Source: Pseudomonas sp. BGI-2
GTDB lineage: Bacteria > Pseudomonadota > Gammaproteobacteria > Pseudomonadales > Pseudomonadaceae
Assembly: GCF_004310295.1 (NCBI RefSeq)
Contig: NZ_SISB01000014.1
Coordinates: 1 to 64,000, forward strand
Length of the DNA: 64,000 nucleotides
Direction: 5' to 3'
Shown here: positions 18,940 to 62,555 of the stretch, one piece after another
Numbering within the stretch: the stretch's first letter is position 1
Layout of the letters: each line of letters begins with the position of its first letter
Translations under genes and position numbers: made by a program
Notes under the pieces: model-generated
Databases searched by the model: none
The model's input: only the letters and a program-made list of their open reading frames with translations
Told to the model about the DNA's origin: nothing

Positions 18940-19323
18940 CTAAACCTTGGTTTGAGCCTTCGCCATTTGCAACGCCTCCCAATGATCCAGCGCCCGCTCT
19001 ACGAGCAACTGCACGCCATCGGCCATGCGGCTGAGTGCCAGGGCTACCGAGCGCCGTGTCCCGTCCACGTCGTCCGCAAGATCGGCCGCAATGGCACTGA
19101 TGGACAGCAAATCTTCGGAGGCGTTGGCCAGCAGGGCTTCGGTGTCGATGTCGGGAGAAACTGAGAAGAGCGCGCCTTTGCGGCGCCTGGCTGGTTTTCC
19201 GTCAGCCGGGGGGAAGTAGTGGGCGAAGGCGCGGTCAGCGGCTTCTTTGAGTTTTTCAGCCTCGAGAGATTCTTCTGACGGGGCGTCAGAGTTCTCTGGA
19301 GGATTGGGCGTTATCTTGATCAT
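18940..19323 (-). CDS. DUF6124-like small protein
   Basis: 127 residues, no signal peptide, starting MIKITPNPPE; the MxKxTPNPPE opening is typical of Pseudomonas DUF6124 proteins. Mostly helical, with a basic patch KPARRRKGALFSV at about 46-58, followed by DIDTEALLANASEDLLS. The function is unknown to the family and I do not propose one. Start at 19323: the Shine-Dalgarno TTTAGGA precedes it and is itself part of the structured leader at 19324-19545, so translation is likely controlled by RNA folding. Assignment rests on remembered family features, not a search. Confidence 0.7.
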   Translation of the reverse strand: MIKITPNPPENSDAPSEESLEAEKLKEAADRAFAHYFPPADGKPARRRKGALFSVSPDIDTEALLANASEDLLSISAIAADLADDVDGTRRSVALALSRMADGVQLLVERALDHWEALQMAKAQTKV

Positions 19324-19545
19324 ATGAAATATCCTAAACAGTAAGTTGGAGCCGTCACCGTTCGCTTGCACGCGAATGGGGTGGCGGCCGTGCGCAGGTG
19401 TGCAAGACCGGGACTGTTTAGGACACCCAGCAGATCCGAGGATCTCCTGCGCGCAGCCGCCATAAAGCAGTGAACACTTAAATGCTCAATGAGAGATATG
19501 GCAATTGCGACCTAAACAGTTTCGTCGGACTTGCACGTCCGTGTC
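19324..19545 (-). promoter_or_regulatory. Structured RNA leader (copy A) sequestering a ribosome-binding site
   Basis: Reading the minus strand as RNA: a 16-bp helix (19446-19461 with 19383-19398, one mismatch) encloses a hairpin AGAUC-CUCG-GAUCU (19432-19445). A strand CUUGCAC (19400-19406) pairs with the loop of a downstream hairpin UUCGC-GUGCAA-GCGAA (19361-19376), making a pseudoknot. Strand CCUAAACAGU (19413-19422) is exactly complementary to ACUGUUUAGG (19333-19342), which contains the Shine-Dalgarno of the DUF6124 gene. A second upstream module repeats both elements: ACUGUUUAGG at 19511-19520 and hairpin CGGAC-GUGCAA-GUCCG at 19526-19541. Copy B at 38452-38664 has the same architecture with different sequences. 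Confidence 0.75.
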
Positions 19546-38065: not shown

Positions 38066-38359
38066 CTATTCTGCGGTTTTTTCCTTACGCGACGCGGGCC
38101 CTCGCGTCAGTACTTTCACCGCATCATCAACCAACGCTTTACTCAGCGCCGTCAAATAATGCGAAGCCCATGCATGACGATCACTTTCTCTGTCGTAGGC
38201 AGCATCTTTGGATAATGCTTTGGCGAGGAACAGAAAGTCGGAAGCCATGGCTAACGCATCACCGAGAGGCACACCGCGAGTGACGTGGAACACAGCCTGA
38301 TCCGAGCAGTAGATGGCAGGCGTTAAGCCAATGGTTTTCAGCTCTGATTGCTCGGTCAT
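38066..38359 (-). CDS. DUF3077-like small protein
   Basis: 97 residues, MTEQSELKTIGLTPAIYCSD onward. The segment FHVTRGVPLGDALAMASDFL (V.GVPL.DAL..AS) is the core of Pseudomonas DUF3077 proteins; function unknown. ATG 38359 with GGAGGTGGCAA upstream; the ATG overlaps the stop of a 31-codon ORF (ATGA), so translation is coupled to it. The whole unit lies behind the structured leader at 38452-38664. Confidence 0.75.
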   Translation of the reverse strand: MTEQSELKTIGLTPAIYCSDQAVFHVTRGVPLGDALAMASDFLFLAKALSKDAAYDRESDRHAWASHYLTALSKALVDDAVKVLTRGPASRKEKTAE

Positions 38360-38451
38360 TTGCCACCTCCATTGATGGAGGTGCGGTGGGATAGCGATTC
38401 GAAATCGCGTTGAGGGGTAAAACGAATTTTGTACGGATTTATATTGCGCAT
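38356..38451 (-). CDS. 31-codon ORF directly upstream of the DUF3077 gene
   Basis: ATG 38451, preceded by AAGGAG at a good distance; 31 residues beginning MRNINPYKIRFTPQRDFESL and ending NGGGK. The stop TGA overlaps the DUF3077 ATG, and the DUF3077 ribosome site GGAGGTGG lies inside its last codons. Because its own Shine-Dalgarno is the one sequestered by the leader, it is probably the controlled gate for the downstream gene. Whether the peptide itself has a role is unknown. Confidence 0.55.
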   Translation of the reverse strand: MRNINPYKIRFTPQRDFESLSHRTSINGGGK

Positions 38452-38664
38452 GGTCTAGCTCCTTGACGTGGAACTGCCACTTTTTCGTTACCAAGCGAAT
38501 AGGTGACAGCTGTGCGCAGGTTGGTAAACCGGGAGTCAAGGAATCCGGCACGCCCGAAGACGTCCCACGCACAGCCGCCATAGCTCAAAACTGCGGGCAT
38601 AAAAAAACGCCTGCAAATCTGATTGGGGCGCTGTTGCGCTTAACTCTCGGGTTACCAAGCCCGG
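38452..38664 (-). promoter_or_regulatory. Structured RNA leader (copy B) sequestering a ribosome-binding site
   Basis: Same architecture as copy A. A 16-bp helix (38564-38579 with 38505-38520, all pairs canonical or wobble) encloses hairpin ACGUC-UUCG-GGCGU (38550-38563). Strand UUACCAA (38521-38527) pairs with the loop of hairpin UUCG-CUUGGUAA-CGAA (38484-38499). Strand UCCUUGAC (38535-38542) pairs with GUCAAGGA (38460-38467), which holds the Shine-Dalgarno AAGGAG of the 31-codon ORF. An upstream module repeats the loop (CGGG-CUUGGUAA-CCCG, 38648-38663) and the strand (AGUUAAG, 38639-38645, one G-U pair). A terminator-like GCGCC..GGCG plus seven U (38607-38638) lies between the upstream module and the main body. 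Confidence 0.75.
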
Positions 38665-38772
38665 TCGCTGAATTGGCAGCGACGGCGGAAGGGTATCGTG
38701 CAGGTGGATCTCCTGCAACCTCGGGTGTTGGGTGAATGGCAACGGCGTTTGTCAGAGCTCTGGTGGTTGCTG

Positions 38773-39271: not shown

Positions 39272-41665
39272 GTGAACCACGCGGTCCACAACAAACTGGT
39301 TTCTTTCATCTGGTCCATTGCCGACGATTGCCTGCGGGATATCTATGTGCGCGGCAAGTACCGCGACGTCATTCTTCCCATGGTGGTGTTGCGTCGCCTG
39401 GACGCTTTGCTGGAGCCGACCAAATCCAAAGTAATGGATGAGTTGGCACTTCAGCGTGAAATGGGATTGACCGAACTGGACGAAAGCGCTTTGCAAGCTG
39501 CTTCCGGCTATGTGTTCTACAACATCAGCAAATGGACGCTCAGTCAGCTACAGAAGACGGCCACCAACAATCAGCAGATCCTCCTGTCCAACTGCGAGGA
39601 GTATCTCGACGGCTTCAGCGGCAACGTAAAGGACATCATCCGGCGCTTCAATCTCAAGGCCCAGGTGCGCCATATGGCGGCCAAAGACGTACTGCTCGAT
39701 GTGCTGGAAAAGTTTACCTCTCGTCATATCAACCTGACCCCGAACGATAACGAGGACCCGGAAGGCAATCGCTTGCCGGCCCTGAGCAACTTGGGCATGG
39801 GCTATGTGTTCGAGGAGCTGATTCGTAAATTTAACGAAGAGAACAACGAGGAAGCGGGAGAGCACTTCACCCCGCGCGAAGTGATCGAGCTGATGACCCA
39901 CTTGGTGTTCGACCCGATCAAGGATCGCCTGCCTGCGGTTATGACCATCTATGACCCGGCCTGCGGCAGCGGCGGCATGCTCACCGAGTCGCAGAACTTC
40001 ATCGAAGAGAAGTACCCGGACCCGAGTACACGGCGGGACGTCTACCTCTACGGTAAAGAAATCAACGACGAGACTTATGCCATCTGTAAGTCGGACATGA
40101 TGATCAAGGGCAATAACCCCGCCTACATCCGACCTGGCTCCACCCTGTCCGTCGACGAATTTGCCGGTAGCCGCTTCGACTTCATGCTGTCCAATCCGCC
40201 CTACGGCAAGAGCTGGGCGAGTGAGCAGAAATTCATCAAGGAGGGCGGTGACGTCATCGACCCACGCTTCAAGGTAACGCTCAGGGACTATTGGGGCAAC
40301 GAAGAAGTGCAGGACGCCACCCCGCGGTCCAGCGACGGACAGTTGCTATTTCTGATGGAGATGGTCGGCAAGATGAAAGCACCGGGCGAAGCTGGTCTGG
40401 GCTCACGCATCGCTTCGGTACATAACGGCTCCAGCCTGTTCACCGGCGACGCTGGTGGTGGCGAGAGCAATATCCGCCGTCACATCATCGAAAACGACCT
40501 ATTGGACGCCATCATCCAGTTGCCTAACAACCTGTTCTACAACACTGGTATCACCACCTACATCTGGCTGCTATCGAGCAACAAACCGGCCCATCGACGG
40601 GGCAAGGTGCAGTTGATCGACGCCAGCCTGTTGTACCGCAAGATGCGCAAGAACCTGGGCAATAAGAACTGCGAGTTCGCTGCCGAGCATATCGAGTTGA
40701 TTACTCAGGCTTACCTCAATCAGGACGGCATCGACCGTCAGGGCGGCAGCGACGGTATCGCTGCCCGAGTCTTCGACAACCGTGACTTCGGCTACCACAA
40801 AGTCAATATCGAGCGGCCTGATCGGCGAAAGGCTCAGTTCAGCGCCGAGCGCATCGAGATTTTGCGCTTCGATAAGTCACTGCGCGAGCCCATGGAATGG
40901 ATCTACGGCCAGTGGGGCGAGGCGGTGTACCAGGATCAGACTCTGGCCAAGAACGAAATGGCTATTCTCTCGTGGTGCGAGGATCAGGGACTGGAATTCA
41001 ACGCCAAACAACGCAAGAAGGTGCTGAGCCTCGAAGTTTGGATGAAGCAGTCCCTGCTTGTGACCGTGGCCAACTACTTGATGCAGGCAGTCGGCACCAA
41101 CGAGTTCGACGACTTCAATGTGTTCGCCAAACAGGTAGACAAGGTGCTCAAACAGTTGCATCGCGACTCCGGTATTAAGCTCGGTGCCAGCGAGCGTAAC
41201 CAGCTGCTGAATGCCGTTAGTTGGTACGACGAAAAAGCCGCTAAGGTGATTCGCAAAGTCGAGAGGTTTGACCGCACACATTTGGCGGTTCTGCAGCAGC
41301 GGCTGAACTGCAGCGAGCCCGAGCTTGTGGATTTTGGCTATTACCCTAATGGCAAGCCCGGTGAGTTCATCACTTATGAATCCAGCAGCGAGCTGCGCGA
41401 CAGCGAAAGCATCCCACTGGCTGATTCCATCCACCGCTTCTTCAAGGTGGAAGTGCAGCCTCATGTCGAGGAAGCCTGGATCAACCTGGAGTCGGTGAAG
41501 ATCGGCTACGAGATTAGTTTCAACAAACATTTCTACAAGCATCAGCCATTGCGCAGCATGGAAGAAGTTTCGCGGGAAATTGTGGCTCTGGAGCAGCAGG
41601 CGGAAGGGTTAATTGCGGAAATTTTGGGGTTGAGGGTTGAAGAACTCTCTGGGGTGTCGTCATGA
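39272..41665 (+). CDS. hsdM: Type I restriction-modification methylase subunit HsdM
   Basis: Adenine-N6 DNA methyltransferase of a type I R-M system, 797 residues. An N-terminal HsdM helical domain is followed by the methylase core: SAM motif DPACGSGGMLTES from residue 228 and catalytic NPPYG from residue 308. After about residue 500 a long extra C-terminal region of about 290 residues makes it larger than the usual 500-540 residue HsdM; similar long forms occur in some HsdM lineages. GTG 39272 has GGAG upstream. Overlaps hsdS by ATGA. Confidence 0.92.
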   Translation: MNHAVHNKLVSFIWSIADDCLRDIYVRGKYRDVILPMVVLRRLDALLEPTKSKVMDELALQREMGLTELDESALQAASGYVFYNISKWTLSQLQKTATNNQQILLSNCEEYLDGFSGNVKDIIRRFNLKAQVRHMAAKDVLLDVLEKFTSRHINLTPNDNEDPEGNRLPALSNLGMGYVFEELIRKFNEENNEEAGEHFTPREVIELMTHLVFDPIKDRLPAVMTIYDPACGSGGMLTESQNFIEEKYPDPSTRRDVYLYGKEINDETYAICKSDMMIKGNNPAYIRPGSTLSVDEFAGSRFDFMLSNPPYGKSWASEQKFIKEGGDVIDPRFKVTLRDYWGNEEVQDATPRSSDGQLLFLMEMVGKMKAPGEAGLGSRIASVHNGSSLFTGDAGGGESNIRRHIIENDLLDAIIQLPNNLFYNTGITTYIWLLSSNKPAHRRGKVQLIDASLLYRKMRKNLGNKNCEFAAEHIELITQAYLNQDGIDRQGGSDGIAARVFDNRDFGYHKVNIERPDRRKAQFSAERIEILRFDKSLREPMEWIYGQWGEAVYQDQTLAKNEMAILSWCEDQGLEFNAKQRKKVLSLEVWMKQSLLVTVANYLMQAVGTNEFDDFNVFAKQVDKVLKQLHRDSGIKLGASERNQLLNAVSWYDEKAAKVIRKVERFDRTHLAVLQQRLNCSEPELVDFGYYPNGKPGEFITYESSSELRDSESIPLADSIHRFFKVEVQPHVEEAWINLESVKIGYEISFNKHFYKHQPLRSMEEVSREIVALEQQAEGLIAEILGLRVEELSGVSS

Positions 41666-62358: not shown

Positions 62359-62555
62359 GCTCGAAGGGATAAGCCCGGCAAGGCATTGCTTCAAACGCAA
62401 AGGGCACGAGAGCGCTGACCCTTTGCGTGCTTCAAACGGAATTTTCTCTGTGGCCGGGAACGCTGTGGCAGTCGATCATCGCATGCTGCCGTAGTTGCCT
62501 CCCCGCCGCATTTTCCTTGAACCACACCGCCCGATGAGCGGTGAATGAGGACTTT

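Follow-up and report, generated by a model that had tools for sequence, protein, structure and literature searches.

The window analysed here (the whole stretch of 64,000 nucleotides from Pseudomonas sp. BGI-2) carries on its minus strand two structured RNAs with small genes behind them. We call them copy A and copy B and name their arms and targets (a', b', a1, b1, a2, b2) according to P1 usage. Their features are as follows.

38644..38696, minus strand, copy B upstream a1/b1 target element (Rfam RF03163, c4-a1b1, 57.3 bits, gathering 46.7)
38652..38658, minus strand, copy B a1, an exact 7-nt complement of a'
38639..38646, minus strand, copy B probable b1, 8 pairs with the b' region, one of them G-U, first spotted by eye
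38499..38585, minus strand, copy B C4 antisense RNA (Rfam RF01695, 81.3 bits, gathering 45, E 2.2e-14; -41.4 kcal/mol, z -3.79, 1 of 200 shuffles equally good)
38535..38542, minus strand, copy B b' arm of C4, hairpin loop, anti-Shine-Dalgarno, located in sequence
38521..38527, minus strand, copy B a' arm of C4, located in sequence
38488..38494, minus strand, copy B a2 target, immediately 3' of C4, located in sequence
38460..38467, minus strand, copy B b2 target, overlapping the ribosome site of the leader ORF, located in sequence
38356..38451, minus strand, copy B leader ORF, 31 aa, whose stop shares 4 nt (ATGA) with the next start
38066..38359, minus strand, copy B DUF3077 gene, 97 aa (PF11275, 85.8 bits, a longer frame being scanned)
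19530..19536, minus strand, copy A a1, an exact complement of a'
19511..19520, minus strand, copy A b1, an exact 10-nt complement of b'
19377..19467, minus strand, copy A C4 antisense RNA (Rfam RF01695, 62.1 bits, gathering 45; -47.4 kcal/mol, z -5.38, 0 of 200 shuffles equally good)
19413..19423, minus strand, copy A b' arm, located in sequence
19400..19406, minus strand, copy A a' arm, located in sequence
19365..19371, minus strand, copy A a2 target, located in sequence
19332..19342, minus strand, copy A b2 target, placed at the ribosome site; b' pairs with it exactly over 11 nt
18940..19323, minus strand, copy A DUF6124 gene, 127 aa (PF19619, 91.2 bits)

Both RNAs are C4 antisense RNAs, a family known from phage P1. 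The earlier note had described them, from the letters alone, as a leader of no known family, present at two loci. Since RF01695 (plus RF03163 at copy B) accounts for the sequence, an existing Rfam family explains the structure, and we reject the idea of a new one; as to the number of loci, the genome has 52. The four helices drawn in that note were all found at the proposed places on the minus strand, with the folding scores listed above. The Rfam model gives the outer helix 17 pairs instead of the 16 proposed, and the stretches UCCCGGU and CCUGCGCA, taken to be conserved and unpaired, are conserved but both paired in the Rfam fold, the former mostly forming the 3' side of an additional hairpin (GCCGG/CCGGU) and the latter that of the outer helix. 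What had been called a loop-strand pseudoknot is a'/a2 in the naming of the P1 record, and the ribosome-site helix is b'/b2. The strands of the former do pair, the pseudoknot being one of two possible geometries and antisense arms the other; in P1 the same strands are the antisense arms of a processed RNA (available part of PMC5320573).

The upstream targets a1 and b1, missing from the earlier list of elements, are present at both copies, although at copy A they are recognised by exact complements alone, with no Rfam match to RF03163. The isrK model (RF01394) overlaps the a1/b1 hairpins of copy B with 43.7 bits, below its gathering cut-off of 50. When the copy B leader is folded whole (261 nt), the predicted minimum-energy fold differs from the C4 fold plus a'-a2: a1/b1, further upstream, takes up the arm region of C4, and C4 may thus have to be processed before it can fold freely. 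Neither locus gave a hit in a scan for consensus promoters.

In copy B the start codon that follows b2 begins a 31-codon ORF with the sequence MRNINPYKIRFTPQRDFESLSHRTSINGGGK, so that the ribosome site, which is masked as the earlier note had it, is that of this leader ORF and not of the DUF3077 gene. The leader, which has no match in Pfam or PHROGs, ends in the ATGA that it shares with the DUF3077 start at 38359, and DUF3077 is likely to use the GGAGG in the terminal part of the leader as its ribosome site. Coupling of DUF3077 translation to that of the leader, by analogy with icd/ant, is therefore probable. In copy A there is no leader ORF and the DUF6124 gene lies directly behind C4. With this correction to copy B, the former proposal of a structured RNA controlling translation of DUF6124- and DUF3077-type genes is most likely right.

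The arms of P1 C4 act from a processed antisense RNA, and the P1 record is annotated in the order a1, b1, c4, a2, b2, icd, ant1, with icd and ant1 overlapping by 4 nt. The units described here share with the C4 of P1/P7 (RF01695, RF03163; immI c4-icd-ant) the fold, the arms, the order a1/b1-C4-a2/b2 and the position of b2 at the ribosome site, and copy B has in addition the short ORF overlapping the next gene by 4 nt. In contrast to P1/P7, they are chromosomal, number 52 in one genome, 30 of them matching their own target alone, and guard mostly DUF6124 or DUF3077 genes instead of antirepressors; copy A, moreover, has no leader ORF. A P1-type immI locus, with an icd-like ORF overlapping an antirepressor gene, is not what lies at copy B, where the second gene is DUF3077.

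We consider it very probable that each locus is a C4-type antisense unit repressing a small downstream ORF, derived from a phage module that was domesticated in the genus. The unit, ordered like the immI leader of P1, would run from a1/b1 through a C4 with arms a' and b' to a2/b2 around the ribosome site and then to the small ORF. The arms of C4, presumably released by RNase P, would pair with a2 (over 7 nt) and with b2 (anti-Shine-Dalgarno plus extension) and leave the downstream gene untranslated; repression of the target ORF is suggested by the position of b2 at the ribosome site. For copy B this ORF would be the short leader, to which DUF3077 is probably tied by translational coupling through the ATGA overlap. 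In the genus the units number up to dozens per chromosome, mostly guarding small helical DUF6124/DUF3077 proteins, and more than half carry a two-part address that matches no other unit.

The 52 units of the genome are all above the RF01695 cut-off (150 of 1674 candidates were scored). The ORF behind C4, taken in units L005, L006, L009 and L039 as the second ORF after the leader, belongs in 39 of the 52 to DUF6124 (32) or DUF3077 (7), and in one (L001) to Bro-N; the remaining 12 are without a Pfam family match, four of them being apparently truncated or frameshifted (L002, L013, L025, L026) and eight falling into one alignment (A4), where they are 22-95% identical to the first member. L001 (G000:C14:73626-73712), where C4 is followed by the antirepressor-type Bro-N gene, has an a' 7-mer in common with L008 and L012. 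Seen from the side of the genes, 33 of the 39 PF19619 matches in the genome (38 of the 39 being over the Pfam cut-off) and 7 of the 9 PF11275 matches follow a same-strand C4 at a distance of 68-221 nt. The other six PF19619 matches have no adjacent C4. Among seven stretches examined around C4-less genes, C4 was found in L054 alone, about 2 kb upstream of a disrupted gene; an a1/b1 element is present in L055 (59.4 bits) and, below cut-off, in L054, and the gene of L059 lies at a contig end. At L056 (G000:C31:69900-71200) a PrrF sRNA (160.2 bits) directly adjoins a gene that matches DUF6124 as well as DUF3077 and lacks a C4 match; at L058 (G000:C73:96000-97200) a member of the DUF3077 family, likewise with no C4 match, lies between a small CopG/Arc-like ORF and a Rha/antirepressor-like ORF, both named by eye.

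The complementarity of arms and targets within the genome was assessed by exact Watson-Crick runs, the joint rule being at least 7 for a' together with at least 6 for b'. It is satisfied by 34/52 own pairs versus 6/2652 mismatched ones. Taken singly, a'/a2 runs of at least 7 occur in 45/52 own and 99/2652 mismatched pairs, and b'/b2 runs of at least 7 in 32/52 and 70/2652. By the joint rule 30 of the 52 C4s match their own target alone, and for 27 of these the target matches no other C4. The a' arm by itself is not private, as 41/52 C4s also match one or more foreign a2 targets. An a' run of at least 6 is present in 48 loci, which between them hold 31 distinct strings; some strings overlap, and the most frequent one recurs in 6 loci. 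The joint rule fails for 18 own units; L041 has lost a2/b2. The separation recurs in three other genomes: 15/18 own versus 0/306 mismatched pairs in G005 (the best-scoring 18 of 42 loci), 20/30 versus 13/870 in G009 (the best-scoring 30 of 38) and 15/19 versus 6/342 in G010 (the best-scoring 19 of 35). These exact-run tests took the place of a duplex-energy matrix which, with long bulges allowed, separated own from foreign targets poorly over the 52 units: for b' the own mean lay beyond all 2000 permutations, yet the own target came first in 4/52 rows, and for a' the own mean (-11.9) lay within the permutations (strongest -12.17), the own target being first in 3/52 rows. Allowing G-U in the b' test likewise gave little separation (own 41/52 versus 37% of mismatched pairs).

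The independent covariation claimed from two copies is borne out by these arm-pairing tests and by the alignment of 52 copies, far beyond chance. On this alignment 94.6% of the cells in the C4 helices plus a'-a2 are paired, versus 34-39% when the strands are slid by 1-3 columns and 82.7% in shuffles; all 7 a'-a2 pairs have changes on both sides, and on five measures of covariation 0 of 500 shuffles scored as high. The conserved GTGGCnGCTCC between a2 and b2 of L009 and other units can pair, in the whole-leader fold, with the 3' strand of the C4 outer helix; considered as a third partner of that helix, it showed no excess of own (22/52) over foreign (885/2652) matches and was dropped.

Covariation of this kind would also be expected from a purely cis-acting leader, in which the pairs form within one mRNA as a pseudoknot masking the ribosome site, no free C4 being at work. 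Each C4 does have its own target immediately behind it, and the start codon stands 44-56 nt behind C4 in 50/52 units, a range which is partly the choice of our script, as it took the ATG nearest to 50 within 38-66 nt. A cis pseudoknot, however, leaves no role for the upstream a1 complement, found over at least 7 nt in the 150 nt upstream in 50/52 own pairs versus 300/2652 (11%) of mismatched ones; b1 is weaker, with upstream runs of at least 7 in 21/52 versus 159/2652 (6%). The 5' GG at the P1-type processing position, moreover, is invariant in 52/52 copies. The C4 of P1 is a processed antisense RNA, and the C4-like RNAs of Acinetobacter baumannii also look processed (available part of PMC5320573). 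We therefore regard a purely cis-acting leader as unlikely and hold to the antisense unit.

The family is widespread in the genus, C4 being found in 137 of 149 sampled genomes, our own included, with many at 27 C4s or more, versus 17 of 273 other genomes of the class, where the most in one genome is 6 (lower bounds, as the best 15 candidates were scored). Deeper scoring of 13 genomes gave 52, 2, 21, 10, 10, 42, 41, 11, 1, 38, 35, 27 and 3 C4s, and these counts follow those of DUF6124 with a rank correlation of 0.86 (0.88 with DUF3077 added). G009 is off the trend, with 38 C4s and 2 DUF6124; many of its C4-controlled ORFs start with a VPDPP-type sequence, comparable to TPNPP in DUF6124, and DUF3077 is matched by several. 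DUF6124 itself occurs in 118 of the 149 genus genomes and in 0 of the 273 others of the class, and 14 control genomes had no match for C4, DUF6124 or DUF3077. Tandem runs of three or four C4s within 0.3-1.4 kb occur at G009:C21 16214-16512, G009:C58 321065-321620, G009:C17 111255-112197 and G415:C9 1700-3092.

A model (R1), for which 37 of the 52 own copies were used and 15 left out, was applied to 80 DUF6124 loci of named Pseudomonas genomes, which are the best 80 of at least 125 relatives found with short copy A peptides. C4 was present at 69 of them, with a'/a2 runs of at least 7 in 45, b'/b2 runs of at least 6 in 53, both in 33 and an a1 match in 66. Nine of the 11 loci without C4 retain, by eye, an a1/b1-like hairpin, which is why C4 seems to have been lost there. 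DUF6124 leaders with such a hairpin and no C4 are L055 (by Rfam) and L163, L165, L175, L177, L196, L219, L224, L229 and L231 (by eye); the genes of this kind could possibly be trans targets of other C4s.

The protein of copy A and its flanks find their best matches in named Pseudomonas contigs. The copy A flank that holds an SPFH-like gene (named by eye) recurs at five of the named loci (L153-L157), and so allows the arms to be followed at one syntenic place. The b'/b2 pair TCCTAAACAGT/ACTGTTTAGGA is kept in copy A and L154-L156, with one a2 pair lost in L154; in L157 it is TGGTCTG/CAGACCA, changed on both sides, and L153 has, by eye, a different and bulged pair with a longest exact run of 5. 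The matched change of a'/a2 over the 52 units and that of b'/b2 at this syntenic place point to selection on pairing. They speak against the reading of the units as a selfish or decaying repeat, spread as phage debris without present function, for which one could cite the ORFs apparently truncated or frameshifted, by eye, in L002, L013, L025, L026, L035, L041 and L042 and the runs of three C4 matches in one relative; we find that reading very improbable.

As to the encoded proteins, the predicted models are helical hairpins for both DUF6124 (mean pLDDT 78.2) and, at low confidence, DUF3077 (70.1). Foldseek gave no match to the DUF3077 model at E 0.001 or better, and structural comparison with the DUF6124 model returned only long-helix arrangements (Z up to 9.0, the chance level for helical models). 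A PDB sequence search with a profile of the 52 ORFs produced one match at E 0.11, which was not used. The two families are likely of common origin, judging from one gene of the genome that matches both Pfam entries; profile comparisons of DUF6124 with DUF3077 (probability below 1%) and with the third group, A4, were not significant. By eye, NP or DP recurs as a motif near the N-terminus of C4-controlled ORFs, shortly behind the start: TPNPP in DUF6124, VPDPP in G009, INP or VNP in several leaders and MVNANP in P1 Icd.

Multi-copy type I toxin-antitoxin families consist of many paralogues with their own antisense RNAs. By analogy with them, the units might be of toxin-antitoxin type, the DUF proteins being harmful and C4 serving as the antitoxin RNA, and the P1 Icd protein, encoded at the same position, inhibits cell division (available part of PMC8198154). 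The proteins of the window, however, have 97 and 127 aa and are modelled as helical hairpins (DUF3077 with low confidence), and PADLOC found no match among the 5 proteins scanned. A toxin-antitoxin role thus appears doubtful, and we keep to a C4-type antisense unit of whatever product.

Relatives of phage type exist in viral contigs. Upstream C4s were found at 17 of 18 DUF3077 loci there, and a pattern search, biased to close relatives and sharing some contigs with that set, yielded 76 distinct C4 units among 79 loci scored (of 88 stretches), 66 of which satisfy the joint rule. By our own sorting, the rule holds for 26/26 units with a conserved leader of about 52 aa, 17/17 DUF6124-like units, 12/19 DUF3077 units and 11/14 others, several of these being DUF3077 units by eye. 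The leader-type units carry the same RNA as ours but have a longer conserved leader and varied second genes, in one case a P22_AR_N antirepressor joined by an ATGA overlap. These viral C4-leader units suggest a series in which the phage form, with C4, a leader and an antirepressor or another gene, comes first, copy B with its short leader and DUF3077 stands between, and copy A, with DUF6124 directly behind C4, comes last; domestication would have proceeded in this direction. With tblastn, DUF3077 was not matched in phage records nor DUF6124 in plasmids; one DUF6124 match in phages lay, with a C4, at the edge of a prophage record. A viral search with the Bro-N protein confirmed nothing.

The same viral units raise the question of anti-phage immunity, in which chromosomal C4 RNAs would silence the C4-controlled operons of incoming phages, as was proposed for the Acinetobacter C4-like RNAs (available part of PMC5320573). 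The existence of C4-leader-gene units in viral contigs, the one with P22_AR_N among them, is what this role would need, but our C4s match phage-leader-type targets in 3/1326 pairs with the Bro-N unit L001 excluded (6/1352 with it), which equals the rate of mismatched pairs within the genome (6/2652). Matches to viral DUF3077 units number 15/988, all between homologous units, and to viral DUF6124-like units 0/884. Phage targeting by the C4s of this genome is thus unsupported and the immunity reading improbable; repression of the unit's own downstream ORF remains the preferred one.

C4 has been listed in Proteobacteria and phages (available part of PMC2864571) and predicted in Pseudomonadales (works cited in the available part of PMC5320573). 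A genome of A. baumannii has 21 C4-like sRNAs, six of them truncated, and its Group 1 sRNAs resemble the present set in being chromosomal and multi-copy, with the C4 fold in all but three and variable arms. No targets are given for them; here, in contrast, the RNA sits before its own complementary target and gene (comparison with the available part of PMC5320573). In the literature searched, which left subscription papers mostly outside so that a prior description is possible, we recognised no paper on C4 with DUF6124/DUF3077 units; the RNA family was already known. The analysis identifies the RNA, corrects the target of copy B and reveals an expansion of 52 C4 units in one chromosome; it provides sets of antisense switches that are naturally insulated and come with their targets, offers a way to test how phage immunity may have passed into regulation of the host, and gives access to the control of DUF6124 and DUF3077, families scarcely named in the literature searched. 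We propose tentatively, at somewhat less than an even chance, that the units form a genome-wide orthogonal set of dozens of two-part, mostly private antisense locks, which would silence paralogous small proteins until a signal relieved the repression. If true, this would be an RNA-addressed orthogonal gene repertoire, such as we did not find in the literature searched.

Two further features of the window, both on the plus strand, may be mentioned. An ORF of 797 aa adjoining copy B (39272-41665) resembles by eye the M subunit of type I restriction-modification systems, and a gabT RNA motif (RF01738, 66.3 bits) lies at 62449-62510.
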